A DNA stretch of 33,916 nucleotides. It comes from a virus. A program made the translations under genes and the position numbers. The stretch is taken from the IMG/VR virus record IMGVR_UViG_3300008107_000193, positions 1 to 33,916 of that record; one strand, written 5' to 3'. Below, in pieces: positions 3,193-20,058 of the stretch. Position 1 is the stretch's first letter. Every line of letters begins with the position of its first letter. The notes beneath the pieces are model-generated. The model saw nothing but the letters and a program-made list of their open reading frames with translations, did not search any database and was not told where the DNA came from.

Positions 3193-3934
3193 TTGTACCG
3201 CAAATTTGGGAGATTTTGTTCAAGTCTTACCTGTAATATCAGGTTTTGTCAAAAAGTATGACAAAGTAAATTTTGTTATAAGGCACGACATGAAAAAATT
3301 CAAAGGCTTGGTAGAATTTTTAAAATATCAAGACCTTTTTGAAACTGTTTGTTTTGATGATGAAGCAACAGAATATGGATCAAAATTGCTTCCTGCTTAT
3401 ATTGTAAGTTCTTGGACTAGAGAAGATAAAGGTGATCCTAATCGTCCTATAGAAACTTGCCGTTATGAGAATTGGTTGAAAGATCATTACCATTTTGAGT
3501 TTGATGTGGATGATGAATTTGTAATAAAGTTTCCAAAATGTAATGTACCAGTTGACATGGATGCCATTTATGTCGGTGATCGTTGGAATCATCAGGGGAT
3601 CGATGACCGTAGAGAGACTGGCGTACTATCACACCTGAATAATTGTAAGTTCCTAGACTACAATAATGATCTCCTGACCAATTGTTATATTATCAGTACA
3701 TCACCAAAACCTTTCATTACAAATTTTACTGGTATTGGTATGATTGCCGATTTATTAAACAAAGAATGCTTAGTGGTATGGAAAGCAGAAGATTGGAAAC
3801 CAGAATATAGAGTTGGTGATAATATCAGTTGGGACAATGGCAAAGATATTAATAAAATATTCGAGAAACATTTTTATTTAAACAGAAAAGCAAAGTTGGT
3901 TCATGCTAGTGAATTGGATTTATCAAAACTATGA
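3173..3934 (+). CDS. Putative glycosyltransferase, GT9/heptosyltransferase-like
   Basis: 253 residues from ATG at 3173, chosen because the typical N-terminal motif NLGDFVQVLP falls at residues 11-20; an in-frame TTG at 3152 would only add a weak leader. The NLGD-x(3)-LP block resembles the acceptor-side glycine loop of GT-B enzymes such as heptosyltransferases (family GT9). A later block (FTGIGMIADLL, about residue 184) occupies the place of the second-domain motif, though it is more divergent than in the 4569 gene. The protein is shorter than typical heptosyltransferases (about 320-350 residues). It overlaps the previous gene by 20 bp and the next by 4 bp. Confidence 0.5.
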   Translation: MITLYLNCTANLGDFVQVLPVISGFVKKYDKVNFVIRHDMKKFKGLVEFLKYQDLFETVCFDDEATEYGSKLLPAYIVSSWTREDKGDPNRPIETCRYENWLKDHYHFEFDVDDEFVIKFPKCNVPVDMDAIYVGDRWNHQGIDDRRETGVLSHLNNCKFLDYNNDLLTNCYIISTSPKPFITNFTGIGMIADLLNKECLVVWKAEDWKPEYRVGDNISWDNGKDINKIFEKHFYLNRKAKLVHASELDLSKL

Positions 3935-4572
3935 TTGATAATTACGAAAAAATTTCTTATGGTCATTGGTATCAAAGAACACCAACTGGACCAGGTCCAG
4001 ATTATAGTAAAGTGTATTCACAGACACGATATGACACATATGCTACAACAGATAAAATGTCTGAGTTGAGATTCAATTTGTTAGAAAGAAAATTAGGCAA
4101 GTTCGATTCTATTTGTGATTTCGGTTATGGCAATGGTTCTTTTTTAAGATACTGCGAACAAACAAAAAAAATAAAAAATATTTTTGGATACGATATCTCT
4201 GATTATCCTATTCCTGATGGAGTATTTAAAATTAATGAACCTACAGATGTTGAAGTTGATGTCATGACTTTTTTTGATTCGATAGAACATCTATTACAAA
4301 GAGATTTAACAATATTCATTAATAAATTAAAATTAAAACACATTTGTATTTCTGTTCCTTGGATGCATGAATCTGAAGGTCCAAATTTCTTTAGAAGTTG
4401 GAAACATAGGAGAGAAAACGAACATATACACCATTTCGATTGTCATGGCCTTATCGGTCTTTTATTGTCATGCAACTTTAAAATAATTCATGTTGGAAAT
4501 GATGAAGATGCAATTAGAACTCCTTACTCGAATTTACCAAACATATTAACCGTAATTGGAACAAAAAATTGA
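3931..4572 (+). CDS. Putative SAM-dependent methyltransferase
   Basis: 213 residues, ATG overlapping the previous stop in an ATGA arrangement. The SAM-binding motif is CDFGYGNGSF at residues 62-71, followed by an acidic residue at the end of strand 2 (FGYDIS, D88) and a motif-IV-like FDSIEHL at 115-121. This resembles the Methyltransf_23 (UbiE/tylosin-type) group that methylates sugars and small metabolites. No target recognition domain for DNA is visible. It is the second methyltransferase in the glycan block, suggesting that more than one position of the final glycan is methylated. Confidence 0.65.
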   Translation: MIDNYEKISYGHWYQRTPTGPGPDYSKVYSQTRYDTYATTDKMSELRFNLLERKLGKFDSICDFGYGNGSFLRYCEQTKKIKNIFGYDISDYPIPDGVFKINEPTDVEVDVMTFFDSIEHLLQRDLTIFINKLKLKHICISVPWMHESEGPNFFRSWKHRRENEHIHHFDCHGLIGLLLSCNFKIIHVGNDEDAIRTPYSNLPNILTVIGTKN

Positions 4573-5267
4573 TTTTAAATATCAATCTAGGTGTTTTTGG
4601 TGGTCCATTAAGGAACGGAGATCTTCTTGCTGTTTGTAATGTTGTTGAACATTTACGAAAACAAATTCCAAACTTAAAGTTTCACATGAAACAAAATTCC
4701 ATTTCTTCTGAAGATTATGTTCGGAAAATGTATGATTTCTTGTTGCAGAATACTGATTTCTTTTCTTTAGAACCTGGAAACGAAGATTTGAAATGGAACA
4801 GAATAAACTTGTGGGATTATAGATCCATTTCTGGAGATGTTGCAACAATTAAGAACAAAGAAAAAATTGAGAAGAAAATTGTAATTTGTCCTTTATTTGA
4901 TGCACCATATAATGTCTATAGAAACTGGCCAATAGAATTTTTCTATAATTTAATACAGTCTTATAATGACTATGATAATTACGAAAAAATTATTTGTATT
5001 AATAAACCTTTAAATCAAGAATTTGTAGGATGGAAGTACAGTACAGACTTTGCAGAAAATTTAAGACATATACAGACAGCTGAATACTTTATTGGTGCTG
5101 AAACGGGAACATCGATATTTGCATCCCTACTCGACCCAGCACCACCCAACCTAATCTATTATTATTCGGGTAGAGGTTTATTACATACAACTCCTTTTCA
5201 CATATTCAACGGAAAAGGTCAGATGAAAAGTTATTGGTTGGATTTTGAGGGTTCTACCTGGCAATAA
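4569..5267 (+). CDS. Putative GT-B glycosyltransferase, GT9-like C-terminal motif
   Basis: 232 residues; the best start is TTG at 4569, overlapping the previous stop (TTGA), because the first beta strand (ILNINLGVFGG) starts immediately and the first in-frame ATG lies well inside. Residues 171-190 (EYFIGAETGTSIFASLL) match the conserved second-domain block of heptosyltransferase-like GT9 enzymes (FIGxDTGxxH...L), and VICPLFDAP...NWP near residues 105-121 fits the strand preceding it. It is shorter than usual GT9 enzymes. This is the last gene of the glycan block: a 123-bp gap with a late promoter follows. Activity and substrate are inferred only by family resemblance. Confidence 0.5.
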   Translation: MILNINLGVFGGPLRNGDLLAVCNVVEHLRKQIPNLKFHMKQNSISSEDYVRKMYDFLLQNTDFFSLEPGNEDLKWNRINLWDYRSISGDVATIKNKEKIEKKIVICPLFDAPYNVYRNWPIEFFYNLIQSYNDYDNYEKIICINKPLNQEFVGWKYSTDFAENLRHIQTAEYFIGAETGTSIFASLLDPAPPNLIYYYSGRGLLHTTPFHIFNGKGQMKSYWLDFEGSTWQ

Positions 5268-5390
5268 ATCCAACATTTTGACATCTATGTATCGGATCGA
5301 ATTTTTACAGATACGGAACACAGAAATCGATATGTTGTATAAATAAGCAATCGGGCAACCATAGTGTGTTGCATATCTAGAAGGAAATCA
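5268..5390 (+). other. Intergenic leader region with late promoter
   Basis: A 123-bp gap separates the glycan block from the virion block. It holds the late promoter at 5338-5345, a weak hairpin (GCAAC at 5355-5359 pairing with GTTGC at 5368-5372) in the predicted leader, and the ribosome binding site AAGGA at 5381-5385. I do not see a convincing terminator for the upstream genes. Confidence 0.5.
5338..5345 (+). promoter_or_regulatory. T4-type late promoter TATAAATA
   Basis: The sequence is an exact match to the T4 late promoter -10 consensus TATAAATA. It lies about 45 bp upstream of the ATG at 5391 with no other gene between. In T4 such sites need only this motif and are read by host polymerase carrying gp55 and gp33 with the sliding clamp. 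No -35 element is visible or expected. It marks the start of the virion-related transcription unit. Confidence 0.75.
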
Positions 5391-6563
5391 ATGTATTCGT
5401 TTTTGTCTTTTCTAAGAGAAGAAACTGAGCCTAAACAACTCAAACATATACACCATGCGGAAGATAGACCTCTACTTCATGGAGAAGAAGGTTTTGATCA
5501 TGCATACGGAGCTCTCCAACAGGCACATGAACATATAAAATCTGGAGGCGAGAGTTCTGCACTCACCATGAAATATGACGGTTCACCATCGGTCGTTTTC
5601 GGCCACCATCCAAAAACTGGTAAATTTTTTGTAGCCAGTAAGTCAGCATTTAATAAAACTCCAAAAATAAACTACAATTCAAAAGATGTTGCAAAGAATC
5701 ATGGCCATGCACCAGGTCTTGCAGAAAAATTGAATTCTGCACTTGTACACTTAAAAAAGGTTGCACCTAAGACTGGTGTATACCAAGGTGATCTTATGTT
5801 CTCAGAAGGAGACAAAGAAGATAAGGGTGCCAAAGGAGTTTCATTTACACCAAATACGATTAAGTATACTGCAAAAGGTGAAGAAGCTGATAAAGTCCGT
5901 AAAGCAAAACTTGGCGTAGTTGTGCATACACAATATCACGGTGATGATATTACCACAATGTCATCCGATTCCCATCCAGATGTACACAATTTTAAACAGC
6001 ATAATGATGTTTGGAGCAAATCAGTAAACCATGACACAAAACAGGTGCATTACTCTGACGCAGATCAAGAAACTTTTCAGCACCACATGAATGAAGCTAA
6101 AAAAATACATGACCAAAATAAGTCCATGTACAAGGCAACAGAAATGCATCGTGGAGACGCTGGCCATCTTGCAACATATATTAACCACACAGTTCGTACA
6201 GATGAAACACCAACCGCTCAAGGTTTAGCGAAACACATACAGTCAAAATATACTAAACAATCAGAGAAATTAAAAACACCGATTGCACAGTCAAGAAAAG
6301 AAGCAGAAGCAAAAACACATATAAATCACATTGCTTCAAATGAAAAACACTATAATAACCTTTTACAAATGCATAACCATTTGCAAAAAGCAAAGAATTT
6401 ATTGGTATCCACATTAGAACAACATACTGGCGGTTTGGAACATCATATAGATAGTAAACCAACAGGTCCAGAAGGTTTTGTTGTAAATCATAAGAGTGAG
6501 CCTACTAAATTGGTTAATCGTTCAGAATTTGCAAAAGCAAATTTATTAAAGGTAAGAAAGTGA
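5391..6563 (+). CDS. Ligase-fold (KxDG) nucleotidyltransferase-like protein with capsid-targeting-like N-terminus
   Basis: 390 residues from ATG 5391 with AAGGA upstream; an in-frame GTG at 5364 lacks a ribosome binding site. Residues 60-64 read M-KYDG, motif I of covalent nucleotidyltransferases (DNA/RNA ligases, capping enzymes), K61 being the predicted adenylated lysine. VYQGDLMF (130-137) occupies the place of motif III, EGFVV at 361-365 fits motif IV and TKLV (372-375, K373) motif V. I recall this family from T4-like marine phages as a domain of unknown function (DUF6267). The first ten residues, MYSFLSFLRE, align with the T4 capsid-targeting peptide and end at an LxE prohead-protease-type site. 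The gene is directly behind a late promoter, fitting a virion-packaged enzyme. No additional nucleic-acid-binding domain is recognisable, and whether it joins RNA or DNA is unknown. Confidence 0.65.
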   Translation: MYSFLSFLREETEPKQLKHIHHAEDRPLLHGEEGFDHAYGALQQAHEHIKSGGESSALTMKYDGSPSVVFGHHPKTGKFFVASKSAFNKTPKINYNSKDVAKNHGHAPGLAEKLNSALVHLKKVAPKTGVYQGDLMFSEGDKEDKGAKGVSFTPNTIKYTAKGEEADKVRKAKLGVVVHTQYHGDDITTMSSDSHPDVHNFKQHNDVWSKSVNHDTKQVHYSDADQETFQHHMNEAKKIHDQNKSMYKATEMHRGDAGHLATYINHTVRTDETPTAQGLAKHIQSKYTKQSEKLKTPIAQSRKEAEAKTHINHIASNEKHYNNLLQMHNHLQKAKNLLVSTLEQHTGGLEHHIDSKPTGPEGFVVNHKSEPTKLVNRSEFAKANLLKVRK

Positions 6564-8413
6564 AATCATTTAAGAATTTAATACAAGAAGAATTTAAAAA
6601 GCCAGCAGTTATTGCTTTTGGCAGAATGAATCCTCCTACTACAGGTCATTTAAAATTAATTGATAAAGTAAGAGAGACTGCTGCTCGTCTAAATGCACAC
6701 CATGAAGTTATTGCTTCTCATTCTCAGGATAGTAAAAAGAATCCATTAACAGCGCAACAAAAAGTTAAACACTTACAGAAATATTCTCCTGGTACAAATT
6801 TTGTTGCCGCCTCAAAAGAACATCCGTCTATTTTTCATCATGCAGAGAGACTGAGTAAAGCAGGCCACGACCATTTGGTAGTTGTTGCTGGTTCGGACCG
6901 TGTAAAAGAATTTCATGATAGTTTAAACAAATACAATGGAAAACCAAATAAAGAAGGCCATGTTCCATACAACTTTAAAAAGATTACTGTAGTTTCTGCT
7001 GGATCTCGTGATCCTGATGCAGAAGGAACAGAAGGTATGTCTGGCACTAAGATGAGAGAACACGCAAAGAATCGTGATTTCGCATCATTCAGAGAAGGTG
7101 TTCCTTCTCATGTTTCAGATAAAGACGCCAGAGAATTAATGAGCGATACTCGTAAAGGGATGGGTATTAATGAGGATGTCAGTAGAGGACAGTTCAGAGC
7201 GATATTTGTTACTGGCGGTCCAGGCTCTGGTAAAGATGTTGTTATCCGTGAAGCAGTTGCAGAATCAAAGATTGTAGAATTAAATGTTGTGCAAGCGCAA
7301 GAATATCTAGGCGACAAACAAAAACTATCAGAACAGTCCAAAGATTATCGCAGAGAAGCAATTAGAAACCGTGGTCCTTTGATTATCAACGGTCCAGCCG
7401 ATGATCGTGACCGTATCATGTGGATCAAAGAAGAACTTGAAGATTTAGGTTACGGAACTATGATGGTATTTGTCAATACCACAAACGAAACCAGTAAAGA
7501 AAGAAATTCACTATTGTCCAGGACGATGGTTGAATCTGTGAGACACGATAAGTGGTTGCGATCTCAAGAAAATACTAAATACTTTAACGAAGTGTTTTCT
7601 AAGTTTATGATTTTTGACAACACAGGCGAGGTTAAAGAAGAAGATATCCATGATGTGTATGAATCTACAAATATTTTTCTAGATTCAGAAATAGTTGGTG
7701 AAACAGCCCAAGAGTGGTTAGAACGCCGCAAGTCAGTAGATATTAATAGATTATTTAAGGAATATAGAAATGTTAAAAAAGATAATAGATTTTCTGAAAG
7801 TAAAACCAGTCCAGTCAGCGAGCTCTTCCCAGGAATCCAGCTCCAAAGAAAGCTCAACAAGCGAGATAACATCAAAGACGATGACATCAGAGCCACAGGC
7901 GGTTACACCTTCAAAACCTACCACGAAGCCTCGCAGCCAGTCGTCAAGGTCCAACCAGAGCCAAAAGAAAGCAACTTCAGGCGGGACAAAGAAAAAGAAA
8001 AGTTAAAAAGAATAGTTCGTGCCCCAAGTGGTGCGATAAAGACACAAGGAGTAGGTCCAGAATTTGACACTCGCCAACAGGGAACAGTATACCCTATGTC
8101 AGGACTAGGCGATGTGACCTACCGAGAACAAAAAGAATTTAAAGATTTTCGTAAGCACAGAAATCCAGTAGCACACGCTTCACAAAAAGTAGGACCAGGA
8201 TCAGGTAAACATAAACAAAAATCTAAAGATGCAGTTCGTGGTGAGAAACATAAAAAGAAACAATATCACGAAGCAATAGACGATCCTGGTGCAAACGATA
8301 TGGGTGTTGCTGGAACTTTAGGTGGTTCTACAAATAAAGAACCTATGCAAAAAATTTCTGATACATACGGTAAAATTAAATTGTTGCGGAAAAATAAAAA
8401 TGTTAAAATTTAA
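6560..8413 (+). CDS. Nucleotidyltransferase-P-loop kinase fusion, NadR-like architecture
   Basis: 617 residues, GTG start at 6560 in a GTGA overlap. Residues 1-10 (MKSFKNLIQE) look like a capsid-targeting peptide with IxE cleavage site. Residues 15-200 form an HxGH-superfamily nucleotidyltransferase: GRMNPPTTGH (21-30, (H/T)xGH) and MSGTKMR (160-166, the ISSTxxR equivalent). A second domain begins with FVTGGPGSGKD (P-loop 219-226) and continues to about residue 375 with basic lid-like residues, resembling AAA_33/zeta-type kinases. The order adenylyltransferase then kinase is that of NadR, which makes NAD from nicotinamide riboside. Residues about 400-617 are lysine-rich and probably poorly ordered, and part of them (404-482) overlaps another ORF. 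Substrate is not provable here; pantetheine-phosphate or sugar substrates remain possible. Expressed late with its neighbours. Confidence 0.7.
   Translation: MKSFKNLIQEEFKKPAVIAFGRMNPPTTGHLKLIDKVRETAARLNAHHEVIASHSQDSKKNPLTAQQKVKHLQKYSPGTNFVAASKEHPSIFHHAERLSKAGHDHLVVVAGSDRVKEFHDSLNKYNGKPNKEGHVPYNFKKITVVSAGSRDPDAEGTEGMSGTKMREHAKNRDFASFREGVPSHVSDKDARELMSDTRKGMGINEDVSRGQFRAIFVTGGPGSGKDVVIREAVAESKIVELNVVQAQEYLGDKQKLSEQSKDYRREAIRNRGPLIINGPADDRDRIMWIKEELEDLGYGTMMVFVNTTNETSKERNSLLSRTMVESVRHDKWLRSQENTKYFNEVFSKFMIFDNTGEVKEEDIHDVYESTNIFLDSEIVGETAQEWLERRKSVDINRLFKEYRNVKKDNRFSESKTSPVSELFPGIQLQRKLNKRDNIKDDDIRATGGYTFKTYHEASQPVVKVQPEPKESNFRRDKEKEKLKRIVRAPSGAIKTQGVGPEFDTRQQGTVYPMSGLGDVTYREQKEFKDFRKHRNPVAHASQKVGPGSGKHKQKSKDAVRGEKHKKKQYHEAIDDPGANDMGVAGTLGGSTNKEPMQKISDTYGKIKLLRKNKNVKI
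7770..8006 (+). CDS. Candidate nested gene overprinted on the nucleotidyltransferase-kinase gene
   Basis: An ATG-started 78-residue frame lies wholly inside the 6560-8413 gene in another frame. It has AAGGA at 7757-7761, 8 bp before the ATG, the same spacing as the nested outer spanin start at 13030. The product starts with a short hydrophobic-basic segment (MLKKIIDFLKVK) and continues as a Ser/Thr/Lys/Gln-rich, disordered tail ending in TKKKKS. The DNA here is visibly richer in G and C than its surroundings, and codon third positions of the long gene switch to C/G (ctc, atc, gac, gtc, agc), while the nested frame uses many A-ended codons (tca, aca, aaa). This suggests that the nested frame constrains the sequence. 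It could still be a non-coding shadow; conservation in relatives would decide. Confidence 0.45.
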   Translation: MLKKIIDFLKVKPVQSASSSQESSSKESSTSEITSKTMTSEPQAVTPSKPTTKPRSQSSRSNQSQKKATSGGTKKKKS

Positions 8414-8702
8414 AGACTTTATTTTAGAAGTTGCTGCCTGGCAACGCAAAGAAGGTAAATCTGAATCTGGTGGATTGAATCGCAAAGGTATTGAATCATA
8501 CCGCAGAGAAAATCCAGGTTCAAAACTTTCTATGGCTGTTACAACGAAGCCATCAAAGTTGAAAAAGGGTTCTAAGTCAGCAAAAAGAAGATTAAGTTTT
8601 TGCAGAAGAATGTCTGGCATGAAAAGAAAATTAACATCAGCAAAAACTGCTCGTGATCCTGATTCAAGAATAAACAAAGCTCTACGTAAGTGGAACTGTT
8701 AA
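8400..8702 (+). CDS. Small basic phage protein (DUF6321-like) with capsid-targeting-like N-terminus
   Basis: 100 residues from ATG 8400, overlapping the previous gene by 14 bp; an earlier in-frame start at 8322 would add a stretch lying inside the previous gene. The N-terminus MLKFKDFILE aligns position by position with T4 capsid-targeting peptides (aromatic at 4, hydrophobic at 7-8, E at 10). The core WQRKEGKSESGGLNRKGIES with the following YRRENPGS is a signature I recall from a conserved phage family (DUF6321). The remainder is very rich in Lys, Arg and Ser with two cysteines, consistent with a nucleic-acid-binding protein packed with DNA. Function is unknown. It is part of the late virion block. 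Confidence 0.65.
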   Translation: MLKFKDFILEVAAWQRKEGKSESGGLNRKGIESYRRENPGSKLSMAVTTKPSKLKKGSKSAKRRLSFCRRMSGMKRKLTSAKTARDPDSRINKALRKWNC

Positions 8703-8716
8703 TAACGGAGAAAAAA

Positions 8717-9730
8717 ATGTTCACCAAGTCAAAAGTAACTCAATCTATGGTCGATGCTGTAAACGAAGCACTCAAAGGCGACCAGCACAAAATCGATGCC
8801 AATAAGAATAAAAAAATCGATGCACAAGATTTTGAAATTCTTCGTTCTAAAAAAGAAGTCAAAGAAGAATTAAAAGGTGATCAGCATAAAATTGATGCCA
8901 ATAAGAACAATAAAATTGATGCACACGATTTTAAAATTCTCCGTAAACAGAAAAAAGAAACTTATGGTGAAGAAGCAATTGCTAGAATCATCGAAACTTC
9001 TCATCTGAATAAAAATAAAAAAGATGATGTTCCTTTTACTCCTGATAAACCAAAAAAATCTCCATCAGCTATAGCTGGCAAATATGGTCAATCATATTCT
9101 ACTGTGCGCCATCTTGCTAGACTAGGAATGAAGCAAGTAACGAAAGAAGATGTTGATTTAGATGAGGCTCGTAAACTGGAAGGCACATATTCAAATAAAA
9201 ATGGTCACGAATCAAAGGTATACAAACTATCCGGTGAACATAATGAAGGTGATCCTTATCACGTTAAACTTTTTAAAAATGGTAAGCATCATGAACCAGC
9301 TGATTACTTTACCAATGATAAAGACGATGCTCATTCAACAGCCAAGGCAATGGTCAAGGAAGAAATTGAACTTGAAGAACGTACACTCACAGAACCAGAA
9401 GCAGCAGAAAAAGAGCGTATTGTTAAAGGAATGAAAAAAGGTTTGCAAGGTTTCAAACAACGATATGGTGAGCGTGCTAAATCTGTTATGTACGCAACAG
9501 CAACAAAACTTGCTAAAGAAGATACCGTACAAGAAGGTGAGAATAAGCAAGTAAAAGGCGGTGATCCTTGCTGGACAGGTTATCAAATGGTTGGCATGAA
9601 GAACAAAGGTGGCAAGAAAGTTCCTAACTGTGTTCCAGAAGAAACACAATGTGACACACCAATGAATCGCACAACCAAAATTGCAAAGTCAGCTTTTGAA
9701 GCAGTAAAGAACAGAACAAAAGTAAAATGA
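8717..9730 (+). CDS. Virion-associated protein with two EF-hand-like repeats
   Basis: 337 residues from ATG 8717, preceded by GGAG at 8707-8710; an in-frame GTG at 8690 lies inside the previous gene and is unlikely. Residues 19-43 and 52-76 are near-identical repeats containing a loop of the form DxNxNxKIDxxDF (D27/N29/N31/D35/D38 and D60/N62/N64/D68/D71), which fits calcium-binding EF-hand or dockerin loops. A later conserved block (about 230-275, ERIVKGMKKGLQGFKQRYG then AKSVMYATATKLAKE) and a cysteine-containing block GGDPCWTGYQMVGMKNKGGK with VPNC after it (about 290-315) recur in proteins of T4-like marine phages that I associate with virions. Highly charged, no membrane segment. Exact role unknown; its place behind the late promoter suggests a structural or head-internal protein. 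Confidence 0.6.
   Translation: MFTKSKVTQSMVDAVNEALKGDQHKIDANKNKKIDAQDFEILRSKKEVKEELKGDQHKIDANKNNKIDAHDFKILRKQKKETYGEEAIARIIETSHLNKNKKDDVPFTPDKPKKSPSAIAGKYGQSYSTVRHLARLGMKQVTKEDVDLDEARKLEGTYSNKNGHESKVYKLSGEHNEGDPYHVKLFKNGKHHEPADYFTNDKDDAHSTAKAMVKEEIELEERTLTEPEAAEKERIVKGMKKGLQGFKQRYGERAKSVMYATATKLAKEDTVQEGENKQVKGGDPCWTGYQMVGMKNKGGKKVPNCVPEETQCDTPMNRTTKIAKSAFEAVKNRTKVK
8771..8944 (+). repeat. Two 75-bp coding repeats (99-bp period) encoding EF-hand-like loops
   Basis: Units at 8771-8845 and 8870-8944 encode LKGDQHKIDANKN-x-KIDA-x-DF-x-ILR twice. Of 25 residues only three differ, while many codons differ at third positions (for example ggc gac versus ggt gat), so the duplication is old and the protein sequence is held by selection. 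Confidence 0.85.
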
Positions 9731-11196
9731 AAAAATTAAATTCTATTCGAAAAAATCCTGAGCCTGCCAGAGGACAAAGTGGAATAAATCCACTTGATCC
9801 TTGGGGTGCAAAAGCAGGTATCAATGAAGAACCAATCAATGAGATATCTGCTCGTGCATCTGAATCTGATTTACTATCTAGATATTTAAAAGCTAGAGGC
9901 ATTAATCCAGAATATGTGCCAAAAAATACAAAAGTTGCACATTCTAAATCTTCAGAATTTATGAAGTGGAAAACAGACCATGCAAATGATCGTTTTGAAT
10001 CGGTTATGACAACACATTCTCCTACAGGTAAAAAGTTTCATCAACTGAAAAAATCTGTTCATACTCATTCGTTAATTGAACCTGTTCACACTAATGGTTT
10101 GAGAAAAGAAGAAAAAGATAAAACAGATACCGTAACATTAAATATACCTCTAATGATTCGTATGTTAGAGTTGGCAAGAGAAGATATTAAATCTGATGCT
10201 GATCTACACAAGGTTATTGAAAAACTTATCAGTATCCGTGATAAAGGCACATTGACAATGGATGACTATGATTTTGTTTCTAAGATACAAGAAGCATATA
10301 GTCTACCTACTGCATCTGATGCTGATCATGAACACGTTAAGAGACATTTGAGTTCTGTATTAGGTGTACATAGTAAACCAGAAGAAAAGAGTTCAGTACC
10401 TGCTGTTCATCGTGCAATACAAAAAGTTTCTGGTATATCAGACTCATCGACAAGAAGAATGTCTAAAGATATTTTAAAATCATTAGTACAGAAACATAGA
10501 ATTGTTGTCGATAAAGATCACAGACAATTATTAAACAAAGAATCAACACAAATAAATGAACTTAGTCCTGCAACTAAAGCGTCATATAAAGAGAAAGCAA
10601 AACAAACAATTGCTCAGCTCAAGCCACACGCAAAATCAGGCGAGTATAAAGATATTGCTCAAAATATTATTAAACGCCGTGAAAAAGGTTTATCAATGGC
10701 CAAAGAAGAAATTGAAACAGCCAATGAATCTTCAGCCTACGGTAGAATTAGTTCCAGATTCAAAACACTATCTGGTCGTTCACTTGATGCAGCTGCAAAA
10801 GAACATGGTGATGAAGCTAAGAGGCTTCAAAAAGAAATAGAAGCACAACAAAAAGAAATAGATCGCCGTAAAGCTGCATTGAAACAAGAAGAAGTTGGAC
10901 AAATTGATGAAGTAGAAAAAAAAGAATATTCTAAATCTGCTCGCATTATCAAAAGCATCTACAAAAGAAAACATATGAAAGAAGATATGTATGATTTTGA
11001 AAAAGGTGACAAACAACAATCTCAAGATGATAATGTTGGAGACGATAGAAAAAGACCTAAAGCCAAAGCTATCATGACTGGTGGTAAAACGATGACCGGT
11101 CAACAAAGAGATGATGTGGAGATTGATCCAGAAATGGCTCGAAAACCTAATCCACCAGATGGTTTTGAAAAGGACTATGGAAAGAAATCGGTTTAA
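9727..11196 (+). CDS. Conserved T4-like phage virion-region protein, coiled coil
   Basis: 489 residues, ATG overlapping the previous stop (ATGA). The N-terminus contains NPEPARGQSGINPLDPWGAK, a motif I recall in proteins of marine T4-like phages, followed by NEISARASESDLLSRYLKAR. A long charged helical part (about 365-400, KRLQKEIEAQQKEIDRRKAA) should form a coiled coil. The C-terminal KAIMTGGKTMTGQQRDDVEI block is also conserved in such phages. No enzymatic motif, signal peptide or membrane segment is visible. The lysine/glutamate-rich character resembles scaffold or internal head proteins, but that is inference. It is the last gene before the second late promoter. Confidence 0.55.
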   Translation: MKKLNSIRKNPEPARGQSGINPLDPWGAKAGINEEPINEISARASESDLLSRYLKARGINPEYVPKNTKVAHSKSSEFMKWKTDHANDRFESVMTTHSPTGKKFHQLKKSVHTHSLIEPVHTNGLRKEEKDKTDTVTLNIPLMIRMLELAREDIKSDADLHKVIEKLISIRDKGTLTMDDYDFVSKIQEAYSLPTASDADHEHVKRHLSSVLGVHSKPEEKSSVPAVHRAIQKVSGISDSSTRRMSKDILKSLVQKHRIVVDKDHRQLLNKESTQINELSPATKASYKEKAKQTIAQLKPHAKSGEYKDIAQNIIKRREKGLSMAKEEIETANESSAYGRISSRFKTLSGRSLDAAAKEHGDEAKRLQKEIEAQQKEIDRRKAALKQEEVGQIDEVEKKEYSKSARIIKSIYKRKHMKEDMYDFEKGDKQQSQDDNVGDDRKRPKAKAIMTGGKTMTGQQRDDVEIDPEMARKPNPPDGFEKDYGKKSV

Positions 11197-11202
11197 ATAA
11201 TA

Positions 11203-11210
11203 GATAAATA
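11203..11210 (+). promoter_or_regulatory. T4-type late promoter GATAAATA (7 of 8)
   Basis: GATAAATA differs from TATAAATA only at the first base. It lies in the short gap just after the stop at 11196 and 31 bp upstream of the ATG at 11242, with AAGGAG in between. The gene it would drive is followed by a strong terminator, giving a single-gene late unit. Confidence 0.65.
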
Positions 11211-11241
11211 AGAAGATAACCCAAGGTTAAAGGAGAAAAAA

Positions 11242-11901
11242 ATGCCATCATGGGGTAATAACGATAACGCAGCCAACGCACCATATTGGGCTGTAAACTC
11301 AACAATTGTCAATGCGACTAACGTAAAAAATAATGCAGCTGGACCAACAGCTGCAAACGTTGCATTGTTGTTCAGCAATACCACAGCTGATGTATATACA
11401 GTAAATGCGACCATCGGTCTCTTTGGTGTATCTGCCGCAGAAGCTGCAGCTGATCTAAACACAGGTGCTCATACTGGTTGGGTATTGCGTACAACTGGTT
11501 CAGGTGGTCGTGCAAACCGTGTTCAAGAAGAAGTTCTCGTTGCGATGAACACAATGAATAGTGACTACGAAGATACCACATACAAAGATGCGGTTATCAC
11601 AATCACTTCACAACCATCTAACGGTTCTGCTGCGAATGGCGCTGGCAACACAGTAACATTTACTGTTGCAACATCTGTTGTGCCATCTGGAACATCATTG
11701 ACATACTACTGGCAGTACAACGATGGTTCTGTTTGGGCCAACACGGCAACTGCTGGAACATTCTTCACAGGAAATACATCTACAACATTGACAGCTAATG
11801 CAGCAAACACTTTCTTGAATACATACAAGGTTCGTGTAATTGTTAATGCAGCAGGTGCAACTAGTGTAACTTCCGCAAACGCAACTATTACGATCACTTA
11901 A
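11242..11901 (+). CDS. Virion structural protein with C-terminal Ig-like domain
   Basis: 219 residues, ATG preceded by AAGGAG at 11229-11234. The protein is rich in Asn, Ala, Thr and Gly. The N-terminal part includes GWVLRTTGSGGRANRVQEEV with TLVAM-like sequence after it (residues about 74-103), a block seen in T4-like phage structural proteins. From about residue 117 the sequence (VITITSQPSN, LTYYWQYNDG, TYKVRVIVNA, TSANATITIT) shows the alternating strands and the conserved W of an Ig-like/bacterial Ig fold, as used in capsid decoration or tail tube proteins to touch carbohydrates. The gene has its own late promoter and terminator, so it is probably made in large amounts. Decoration protein, tail protein or capsid-associated protein cannot be told apart from sequence alone. 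Confidence 0.65.
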   Translation: MPSWGNNDNAANAPYWAVNSTIVNATNVKNNAAGPTAANVALLFSNTTADVYTVNATIGLFGVSAAEAAADLNTGAHTGWVLRTTGSGGRANRVQEEVLVAMNTMNSDYEDTTYKDAVITITSQPSNGSAANGAGNTVTFTVATSVVPSGTSLTYYWQYNDGSVWANTATAGTFFTGNTSTTLTANAANTFLNTYKVRVIVNAAGATSVTSANATITIT

Positions 11902-11937
11902 TAAATAGTTTGCTTTTGGTGGTTTTGTGTTGACGAC

Positions 11938-11972
11938 AACGGAGACATCCTAAAGGTTGTCTCCGTTTTTTA
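11938..11972 (+). terminator. Rho-independent terminator
   Basis: A 10-bp perfect stem (11938-11947 pairing with 11958-11967, core GGAGACA/TGTCTCC) encloses a 10-base loop and is followed by a run of seven T (11966-11972). It stands 37 bp after the stop of the Ig-like protein gene and before the next gene at 11991. It is the clearest terminator in the window. Confidence 0.9.
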
Positions 11973-11990
11973 ATATTAGGGTTTGAATTG

Positions 11991-12377
11991 ATGTTTGATG
12001 ATTTAAATGAAGATAATTTTACTTTATATGCAATGAAGTGTTATGAAGCACCAAATTGTATTATGTCTGAGTTTGAAGGAGATATAAAACGAACAAAATA
12101 TCTTAAAAGATTGTTTCGTAGATATAAGATCACAAAAACTCTAAAAGAAAGATTGATATTAAATCACATTATTCTATTGAACAATGTTTTTGGTCCAGAA
12201 GCAACATCAAGAATATTATTCTATAGGATTGATGAAAGAGATTATGATATACTCAAAACATTTCTTTTATATTTAAATATATTACCAGAAGTAATAAAAG
12301 GCATTAACGGCAAATCAATTTTAACAAATGATATTCCAATAGATATGGATATCGCAGAAAAGTTGAGAAAAATATGA
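11991..12377 (+). CDS. Conserved T4-like phage protein of unknown function
   Basis: 128 residues; ATG at 11991 is used rather than the TTG three bases upstream. The protein is helical, with LKERLILNHIILLNNVFGPEA near residues 54-74 and ILKTFLLYLN near 91-100, blocks I recall as conserved in small proteins of marine T4-like phages (DUF7207-like). An acidic N-terminus precedes EAPNCIMSEFEGDIKRTKYL. No catalytic motif or membrane segment is seen. It overlaps the next gene by 4 bp (ATGA), so the two are probably translated together. The upstream intrinsic terminator means the gene needs read-through or a promoter not recognised here. Confidence 0.6.
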   Translation: MFDDLNEDNFTLYAMKCYEAPNCIMSEFEGDIKRTKYLKRLFRRYKITKTLKERLILNHIILLNNVFGPEATSRILFYRIDERDYDILKTFLLYLNILPEVIKGINGKSILTNDIPIDMDIAEKLRKI

Positions 12378-12697
12378 CATACGACATACTCACATTCAAA
12401 AAATACATGGAAAAGAAAGATGAACTCAATCATCTTAAACACCAATTAAAACAAGCACCAAGTGATGAAGAAAGAGAATCACTAAACAATCAAATCAATA
12501 CAACAACAGCCGATGCAATGGCACATCTAGGTAAATTACATACCGTAAAAGAAGATGGTATCGTTGCAGCTGCACCAACAAATGTACAAGGTTCTGGTGC
12601 TATTGCTGGTACTGGTGGTGCTGGTGGTGAACCAGGTGTTAGCAGAAGAAGAAATCCAATATTGATGAAGTTGATAGCAAGAAAGAAACCAAAGTAA
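12374..12697 (+). CDS. Small phage protein with Gly/Ala-rich linker
   Basis: 107 residues, ATG overlapping the previous stop. The first half (FKKYMEKKDELNHLKHQLKQ) is a charged helix, likely coiled coil. The second half is a flexible, low-complexity stretch (APTNVQGSGAIAGTGGAGGE) ending in a basic tail ILMKLIARKKPK. A similar GxIAGxxxxGxxPGV element occurs at the ends of other phage virion proteins, as far as I recall. Function unknown; possibly a virion or assembly protein. The spanin gene begins one base after its stop. Confidence 0.55.
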   Translation: MTYDILTFKKYMEKKDELNHLKHQLKQAPSDEERESLNNQINTTTADAMAHLGKLHTVKEDGIVAAAPTNVQGSGAIAGTGGAGGEPGVSRRRNPILMKLIARKKPK

Positions 12698-12698
12698 A

Positions 12699-13175
12699 AT
12701 GTGGTATTTGTCATTCATTCCTGATATATGGTTGACATATGCAGTTCATGCCGTTACAATATTAGGATTAATTGGTGTAATTGTTGGATTCTTAGGCAGT
12801 AAAATACCTTTTGTTAGCCACTATGGTGGTGTTGTAAAAGGTATATCAACAATTGTACTTTTAATTGGTATCTATTTTGAAGGCAGTATAACTAATGAAA
12901 TGATGTGGCGCTCGAAGATTGCAGATTTAGAAAAAAAAGTTGATATAGCAAAACAAGAATCTAAGAAAGCAAATGAGCGCCTAGATAAAGAAGTGAGTGA
13001 AAAGTTAAAAGGTATTAAGGACAACTTTAATGTCAATAAACAAGAAATTGAAAAGAATCGTGAAAGCATTGACGCTGAGTGTAAGCTTAGTGATACTGCC
13101 TGGTTGCTTTACAACCGTGCCAGTCAAAATGCCGTTTCCCGAAGCACCAGCAAACCTACTGGAACCAGCAAATAA
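12699..13175 (+). CDS. Probable inner-membrane spanin (Rz-like)
   Basis: 158 residues from ATG 12699. Two hydrophobic segments (about 11-34 and 45-64) are followed by a long charged coiled coil (about 72-128, with KIADLEKKVDIAKQESKKAN) and a polar tail. Inner spanins anchor in the inner membrane and span the periplasm with such a helix to reach the outer-membrane partner and fuse the membranes in the last step of lysis. Classic inner spanins have one N-terminal segment; two here is a variation. The main evidence is that a lipoprotein gene with outer-spanin features begins within it in another frame (13030), the hallmark of Rz/Rz1 loci. The endolysin is about 3.6 kb downstream. Confidence 0.65.
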   Translation: MWYLSFIPDIWLTYAVHAVTILGLIGVIVGFLGSKIPFVSHYGGVVKGISTIVLLIGIYFEGSITNEMMWRSKIADLEKKVDIAKQESKKANERLDKEVSEKLKGIKDNFNVNKQEIEKNRESIDAECKLSDTAWLLYNRASQNAVSRSTSKPTGTSK

Positions 13176-18610: not shown

Positions 18611-19029
18611 TGTCGGAAGAAGTATCTGATCTGAAGGTTGATGTGGGTGTTCTAAAAACGCAGGTATTGACTTTATCTGCGTTATGTAATAAGATGGATC
18701 AAGTTATCGAAAAGATAGTGGATACCCACGACCGGCACATATCGAAAGTATACTCAGACATGGAAAACCGCAGATTAGAAACAGACGGAGATATTAAAGA
18801 AATTCATGATCGAATTGATATGGTATTGGACAAAATGGAAGCTTCAAATCAAAGAATCATGGATGAATTTAAATCTCTGCGATCAGATATGCAAGACCAC
18901 AATCAAAATGAAAAAGAAGCTTTAGACAAACTTCTACAATGGAAGTGGATGGTTGCCGGTGGTATTATTGTTGTTTCATGGTTGATTTCTAATGTAAATA
19001 TCAATACAATAGTGAATTCAATTAAATAA
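18610..19029 (+). CDS. Coiled-coil protein with C-terminal membrane anchor
   Basis: 139 residues; the ATG overlaps the previous stop by one base (TAATG). Residues 1-110 are a long heptad-rich helix (SDLKVDVGVLKTQVLTLSAL, IHDRIDMVLDKMEASN), and residues about 115-130 (WMVAGGIIVVSWLIS) form one membrane helix near the C-terminus. This looks like a tail-anchored protein with its coiled coil in the cytoplasm. Similar proteins are common in T4-like marine phages without known role. Ending the lysis-area run, it could control holin timing or associate with the membrane during replication. Confidence 0.6.
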   Translation: MSEEVSDLKVDVGVLKTQVLTLSALCNKMDQVIEKIVDTHDRHISKVYSDMENRRLETDGDIKEIHDRIDMVLDKMEASNQRIMDEFKSLRSDMQDHNQNEKEALDKLLQWKWMVAGGIIVVSWLISNVNINTIVNSIK

Positions 19030-19044
19030 ATTATTTTTTATATT

Positions 19045-20058
19045 ATGAGCATTTTTATTGACAGGTCTTTCCTGATGATGGTATCTGGCAAGTTACAAAG
19101 ATTTCAACGAAAGAAGGATGATCTTTATAACTTTAGATGCCCATATTGTGGTGATTCCCAAAAGAACAAAATAAAAACTCGTGGTTATGTCTACCGCAAG
19201 AAGAATGACTATTTCTTCATGTGTCATAATTGTGGTGTATCAACCACATTCTATAATTTCCTAAAACACGTTGATCCAGAATTAATAAAAGAATATCAAT
19301 TAGAGAGGTACAAAAACGGAGAAACAGGAAATAATAATTATCCAAAACCATCATTTGATGAATATAAAACAGAAAAACCAGTATTCAAAGAAAAATTAAA
19401 ACTAGAAACTATCGCATCTTTGCCTAACGAACATTTTGCAAAAACTTATGTAGAAAAAAGAAAGATACCAGAGAAACACTATTCAAATTTATATTTTGCT
19501 GCAGATTTTAAAAAGTTTATAGAAGAACTTGGAATAGAAAAAGATGGTTTAAAAACTGATGATCCTAGATTGGTTATTCCTTTCTATGATAAAGAAAAAA
19601 ATCTAATTGCACTTCAAGGTCGAGCACTTGGTGAGTCCAAACTCAGATATATAACTGTAAAGATGCATGATGATAACAAAAAAGTCTTTGGTTTGGATAG
19701 AATTGATGAAGAAAAACCTATCTATGTTGTAGAAGGACCTATTGATTCGTTGTTTATTGATAATGCAGTAGCCACAGCAGACTCCAATTTACAATCGATT
19801 ACCGAAGTTTTGGACAAGTCCAAAGTGGTTTTAATCTTTGACAATGAGCCAAGAAATAAAGAAATCGTCAAGCAAATTGAAAAAGCCATAGATGAACATT
19901 ATAATGTTGTAATATGGCCAGAGTTCGTTGATGATAAAGATATTAATGATATGATCTTATCTGATTTTTCACTGGATGAAATTGAAGATATTATAAGTAA
20001 GAATACATTCGTTAATTTGAGAGCAAAAATGGAATTCGTGAATTGGAAGAAAGTTTAA
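19045..20058 (+). CDS. DNA primase, T4 gp61-like
   Basis: 337 residues, close to T4 gp61 (342). An N-terminal zinc-binding module has C32 and C35 (CPYCGD) with C60 and C63 (CHNCG). A TOPRIM domain follows, with YVVEGPIDSLF near residue 230 (catalytic Glu) and VVLIFDNEPRN near residue 269 (acidic pair), plus DDKDINDM. It makes short RNA primers for lagging-strand synthesis and would work with a gp41-type helicase that is not in this window. The start follows 15 bp after the upstream gene. The thyX gene begins 3 bp downstream of the stop. Confidence 0.88.
   Translation: MSIFIDRSFLMMVSGKLQRFQRKKDDLYNFRCPYCGDSQKNKIKTRGYVYRKKNDYFFMCHNCGVSTTFYNFLKHVDPELIKEYQLERYKNGETGNNNYPKPSFDEYKTEKPVFKEKLKLETIASLPNEHFAKTYVEKRKIPEKHYSNLYFAADFKKFIEELGIEKDGLKTDDPRLVIPFYDKEKNLIALQGRALGESKLRYITVKMHDDNKKVFGLDRIDEEKPIYVVEGPIDSLFIDNAVATADSNLQSITEVLDKSKVVLIFDNEPRNKEIVKQIEKAIDEHYNVVIWPEFVDDKDINDMILSDFSLDEIEDIISKNTFVNLRAKMEFVNWKKV

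Follow-up and report, generated by a model that had tools for sequence, protein, structure and literature searches.

Three adjacent genes on the plus strand of a virus fragment, IMG/VR record IMGVR_UViG_3300008107_000193, encode proteins that begin in much the same way, and the question raised by this locus is why they should do so. The fragment (positions 1 to 33,916; the whole 33.9 kb is referred to here as the window) comes from a T4-like, freshwater phage of the Kyanoviridae type. The first gene (5391..6563, ATG start) codes for a DUF6267 protein of 390 residues (Pfam PF19782, E=4e-95). The second (6560..8413, GTG start) codes for a 617-residue protein in which a CTP_transf/NadD-like nucleotidyltransferase (CTase) is joined to a P-loop kinase, and the third (8400..8702, ATG start) for a basic DUF6321 protein of 100 residues (Pfam PF19846). 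Their N-terminal decapeptides, MYSFLSFLRE (5391..5420), MKSFKNLIQE (6560..6589) and MLKFKDFILE (8400..8429), end in the I/L-x-E motif at which the head proteins of phage T4 are cleaved. The reading frames, starts and first ten residues were checked and are as given in a preliminary description of this DNA, which had proposed that the three products are packaged in the head. We hold it very probable that the genes make up one late operon encoding internal head proteins, which are packaged through these tags, trimmed and injected. Packaging is supported by the conservation of the leader, the gp21-type protease of the relatives, the late promoter and the mass spectrometry (MS) of cyanophage virions that contain tagged CTases.

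One alternative is that such a short motif recurs by chance. The N-termini of the 57 open reading frames (ORFs) in the window were scanned with the strict pattern M..[FYW]..[hydrophobic][ILVM].E, and the expectation was taken from its rate inside the same proteins. Exactly these three ORFs matched, against 0.04 expected (P(>=3) ~7e-6). As a positive control, the first 150 kb of T4 (242 ORFs) returned IPII, IPIII and gp61.1. The product of T4 gene 61.1 (18966-19130; 54 residues) is annotated merely as hypothetical, and it begins with MKTFKEFIKE, a full match. In two large relatives of 160-176 kb, G001 and G002, the pattern marks almost nothing else: it returns both the DUF6267 protein and the CTase, along with a DUF6321 protein in G002 and one small ORF in G001.

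The leader is also conserved across related phages, as the preliminary description had expected. Among non-redundant homologues from viral contigs, 60 of the 62 DUF6267 proteins match the strict pattern, while Phe4 is found in 67 and Glu10 in 66 of the 68 CTases; the sequences compared are related to one another, and therefore these counts do not represent independent events. At position 8, the CTases of relatives often have valine and sometimes tyrosine. Behind the leader, from about residue 11 to the start of the folded domain, the homologues of both families carry a freely varying linker, and in AlphaFold models the leader and linker are poorly ordered, with the folded domains lying behind them. 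The cyanophage-type CTases of 47 marine contig loci have MKSFFQFLxE-type leaders, a few of them with leucine or tyrosine at position 4. The leader is absent from the CTases of the jumbo phages RaK2 and phi30-2, used as outgroups. With three matches against 0.04 expected, and with the leader kept by some 60 or more non-redundant homologues in each of two families, chance similarity is refuted and its likelihood is negligible.

What the conserved positions may do is suggested by T4, in which IPI, IPII, IPIII and Alt have a comparable leader of about ten residues, with an aromatic residue at position 4, a hydrophobic one at 7 and I/L-x-E at 8-10 (MKTYQEFIAE in IPII and IPIII). For IPIII, it was mapped experimentally that targeting depends on residues 4 and 7 and processing on residues 8 and 10 (PMC9026906). 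These are the very positions that are kept here, so that the leader has the composition of that of a T4-type internal head protein. By analogy, the first ten residues would target the protein to the capsid by binding to the prohead core, and a gp21-type protease would cut after the I/L-x-E at residue 10. The mature proteins would then remain inside the head until they pass into the host together with the DNA, and the packaged enzymes would most likely work at the very beginning of infection, within its first minutes. The preliminary description had suggested looking for the co-occurrence of leader and protease; a gp21-type protease (PF03420) is encoded by seven of nine large relatives, as well as by HTVC008M and Melnitz. 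Late genes and a gp21-type protease in the lineage are shared with the T4 internal proteins. The cargo is different, as it consists here of an RNA-ligase-fold protein, a nucleotidyltransferase-kinase and a DUF6321 protein, for which cleavage and injection are proposed by analogy only.

Late expression is indicated by a T4-type late promoter, TATAAATA, at 5338..5345, which lies 53 nucleotides upstream of the first start codon; the window has no other exact copy. Of 85 distinct relatives, 79 have the same element no more than 150 nucleotides upstream of DUF6267, nearly always at about 53, as compared to a background of 1.8% in random stretches; the element and its conservation point to the late transcription expected of a T4-type internal head protein. 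No copy was found upstream of the CTase or DUF6321 genes in the window or in the relatives' loci examined, and the idea of one promoter per gene was rejected in view of the single copy in the window. At most loci, the start of the CTase gene and the stop of DUF6267 overlap by 4 nucleotides. The three genes are thus one late operon with overlapping genes. The earlier statement that all three follow a late promoter is true directly of the first gene, but of the second and third only in the operon sense, because no separate promoter precedes either of these overlapping genes.

Evidence from actual particles comes from published virion proteomes of cyanophages. A cytidylyltransferase/NMNAT-like protein was reported in virions purified on caesium chloride (CsCl) from S-CREM2 (gp154; PMC10665884), S-SZBM1 (S-SZBM1_140; PMC9146016) and S-SCSM1 (S-SCSM1_91; PMC9602691). 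When translated, the three start with MKNFSSFLTE, MRFRQFIIE and MKSFLQFLKE, respectively, each followed by alanine. Their leader is that of the window protein and their CTase domain is homologous to its own, but the window protein carries a kinase domain and a tail besides. In S-CREM2, the remaining two annotated genes with the leader also encode proteins listed for the virion, namely a S-adenosylmethionine (SAM) hydrolase, gp6 (MKDFDSFLEE), and an APH/ChoK-like kinase, gp14 (MKRFDAFLTE). Looser versions are present in its virion proteins gp13 (MKDLHSFLTE) and gp15 (MNFSEFNES), and in the virion Cas9-like gp12 an N-terminal extension precedes LRFASFMAE (residues 17-25), which is followed by alanine. 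The genes of gp6, gp12 and gp14 take up the stretches 3837-5081, 7704-10313 and 10579-12846 of S-CREM2. The tagged proteins of this phage suggest injected anti-restriction and other effectors. Over the three genomes, leaving out a stretch inside the long-tail-fibre gene of S-CREM2, eight annotated genes have a strict or nine-residue leader, and five of the eight products are in the virion lists available from these reports (P ~0.006). The accessible parts of the three papers do not mention the leader (PMC10665884, PMC9146016, PMC9602691). A search of the openly accessible literature found no publication tying the leader to its cargo, and for capsid targeting in cyanophages it yielded only a T4 review.

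Several observations weigh against this reading. The phage of the window is uncultured and known here from sequence alone, and the window, itself only a fragment, contains no gp21-type protease gene. Three of the eight tagged cyanophage proteins, S-SZBM1_191, S-SZBM1_192 and S-SCSM1_30, all of them small (105-165 residues), do not appear in the published virion lists as available. Certain cyanophage DUF6267 proteins, S-SZBM1_141 and that of P-SSM4, have no leader, and that of the HTVC008M CTase is degenerate; the trait has therefore been gained or lost. The tag-less DUF6267 of S-SZBM1 is absent from the virion list given for that phage. Lastly, two of the MS reports, those on S-CREM2 and S-SCSM1, warn that CsCl preparations may contain carried-over protein.

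This last warning is also a point for another explanation, in which the leader stays uncleaved and serves as a docking helix, binding the enzymes to each other or to the replication or transcription machinery of the infected cell, and their detection in virions reflects carry-over. Residues 4-7 of DUF6267 are indeed predicted to form a short helix, and the genes adjoin DNA metabolism genes in some relatives. However, Glu10 is as invariant as Phe4, which matches the T4 processing rule, and the leader recurs on virion proteins as unrelated as the SAM hydrolase and the APH-like kinase. Furthermore, DUF6321 retains I/L-x-E where the remaining leader is lost. A docking helix is, therefore, quite improbable in our view. 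As for head packaging, direct proteomic support is that of the CTase family only; from the motif alone, we infer that DUF6267 and DUF6321 would be packaged like the CTase, and by analogy with T4 that cleavage after residue 10 and injection would follow.

A further observation concerns proteins of 105-106 residues encoded in the head/terminase gene region of S-SCSM1 (44215-44535) and S-SZBM1 (122311-122628). They have a common tagged N-terminus, MK[TS]FK[QS]F[ML]SE, which is followed by SVNISGDFNGNL. They are missing from the virion lists as available and may be a further internal protein.

The nature of the cargo was addressed through predicted structures and conserved motifs. The AlphaFold2 model of the DUF6267 protein has a predicted local distance difference test (pLDDT) score of 86.6, with residues 11-17 below 50. 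With this model, VIA reached Z 9.1 (3.8 Å over ~190 residues), and the matches listed are RNA, tRNA or DNA ligases, the top ranks being taken by Naegleria RNA ligase, REL1 and T4 Rnl2 (Z 9.1 to 7.2). The motifs occur in ligase order: motif I is K61-Y-D-G, with K61, D63 and G64 invariant in 48/48 sequences, followed by III (QGD, 132-134), IV (EGFVV, EG at 361-362) and V (KLVNR, KLV at 373-375). Q-G-D and E-G are invariant and K-L-V nearly so; motif III has aspartate where glutamate is usual. Foldseek alone returned no significant match for the model, so that the fold is moderately supported, and a sequence profile search found no PDB relative. In predicted fold and motifs, the protein is similar to the Rnl2/NgrRnl group (T4 Rnl2, Naegleria Rnl, T. 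brucei REL1), from which it differs by an identity of ~8-12% and by a long helical stretch inserted between motifs III and IV. DUF6267 is thus a predicted RNA-ligase-fold covalent nucleotidyltransferase, with ligase activity likewise predicted only, and the 'ligase-fold enzyme' of the preliminary description agrees with the model, the VIA matches and the motif columns. DUF6267 is found in 468 phage records, and the literature search mentioned above turned up no paper naming either DUF6267 or DUF6321.

The second protein consists of a nucleotidyltransferase (residues ~15-200), a P-loop kinase (~211-391) and a disordered basic tail (392-617). Its first domain scores above the cut-off for PF01467 and has the near-invariant PPTTGH and SGTKMR motifs of the CTP_transf_like/NadD type. 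The structures nearest to the kinase are PSTK, polynucleotide kinase and Kti12 (Z ~13), and it is also near to polynucleotide/tRNA-ligase kinases and a fungal GDP-bound kinase. The protein had been called NadR-like. This holds for the first domain and for the order of nucleotidyltransferase and P-loop kinase, but not for the kinase itself, which does not match the ribosylnicotinamide kinase (RNK) of NadR best; NadR membership is, therefore, not established. At the junction of the two domains, Ile-Asn-Glu (residues 203-205; 7166..7174) resembles a second protease site. Glu205 is invariant (48/48), residue 203 is isoleucine or leucine in 47/48, and residues 202-206 have pLDDT below 50. It is not accepted as a proven cleavage site since the glutamate is also kept in the CTases of HTVC008M and Melnitz, in which the site reads V-x-E and no kinase lies behind it.

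It may also be argued that these proteins are scaffold-core components for head assembly, with enzymatic domains that are incidental or inactive. T4 IPIII is known to influence head assembly (PMC9026906), and the modular basic proteins encoded next to the operon look core-like. Nevertheless, the catalytic motifs of the ligase fold, the nucleotidyltransferase and the P-loop are nearly invariant, which argues for activity, and we regard a purely structural role as unlikely.

The DUF6321 domain offers a different view of the putative cleavage site. Out of 55 distinct domains, 16 stand directly behind a leader, and the other 39 are parts of other proteins, mostly at the C-terminus, with differing upstream sequences. 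I/L-x-E is found at the start of the domain in 52 of the 55, against 8% expected per ten residues. The candidate cleavage site is what such different fusions have in common, which points to selection on the site as such. DUF6321 is also present in Pelagibacter and Prochlorococcus podoviruses (five matches, genomes of 33-40 kb), in which a gp21-type protease is not expected.

Downstream of the operon, 8717..9730 encodes a modular basic protein with dockerin-like repeats and other modules, some of which come just after LDE or LEE. It is comparable, by position downstream of the CTase only, to S-SZBM1_139, a hypothetical protein encoded directly downstream of the CTase of that phage and listed among its virion proteins (PMC9146016). 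The next gene (9727..11196) encodes a modular basic protein of 489 residues with INE, LIE, IQE and IDE sites, and homologues of its first module have a nearby I/L-x-E in 61 of 80 cases. The short modules of the two proteins, which include dockerin-like ELKGDQ.KIDANK, CWxGYxxxGMKxKxGKxVPNC and LSPxTxxSY, are common to aquatic T4-like phages. That every module starts after I/L-x-E is unsupported (dockerin-like 4/42, CWTGY 1/41, TEPEAAEKER 7/39); the rule holds for DUF6321 and, in part, for the module that opens the 9727 protein.

Inside the part of the CTase gene that encodes the tail, a nested +1-frame ORF at 7770..8006 is a candidate overlapping gene. Its 78-residue product (MLKKIIDFLKVKP...KKATSGGTKKKKS) has an amphipathic start and a basic tail rich in Ser, Thr, Pro and Lys, and has no PHROG match at E < 0.1. 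AAGGA lies upstream, as it often does before the corresponding ATG in relatives. Most of 57 diverged relatives have a homologous +1 ORF at this position, and its two ends are conserved (MLKxxIxFLKxKP ... KKxTSxKTKKK). Synonymous-codon permutation gave p<0.05 in 16 of 41 genes individually, and within the overlap the differences in divergence between codon positions are levelled out. These features are suggestive, not proof, of an overlapping gene.

Since tagged enzymes occur in the published particle proteomes of relatives, RNA-ligase-like and nucleotide enzymes are probably injected with the DNA. One candidate role is the mending of RNA cut by the host, since DUF6267 is RNA-ligase-like and the kinase domain is similar to kinases that act on RNA; the NadD-like domain suggests a role in nicotinamide adenine dinucleotide (NAD) metabolism. 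A bolder idea, which we put forward as speculative, is that of a cargo code common to aquatic T4-like phages (Kyanoviridae and their freshwater relatives), made up of the leader and of I/L-x-E-bounded cassettes in longer proteins, for loading interchangeable enzymes into the head. The cargo here might then be an injected RNA-repair kit of RNA ligase, RNA-directed kinase and nucleotidyltransferase, which would undo an anticodon-nuclease-type defence before phage genes are expressed.

For the family as a whole, DUF6267 gains a pointer to its probable function, that is, an RNA-ligase fold. A signature in the sequence would allow head-packaged, probably injected proteins to be predicted in a group of aquatic phages that ranks among the most abundant. 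It would also explain why a supposed metabolic enzyme recurs in the virions of cyanophages.

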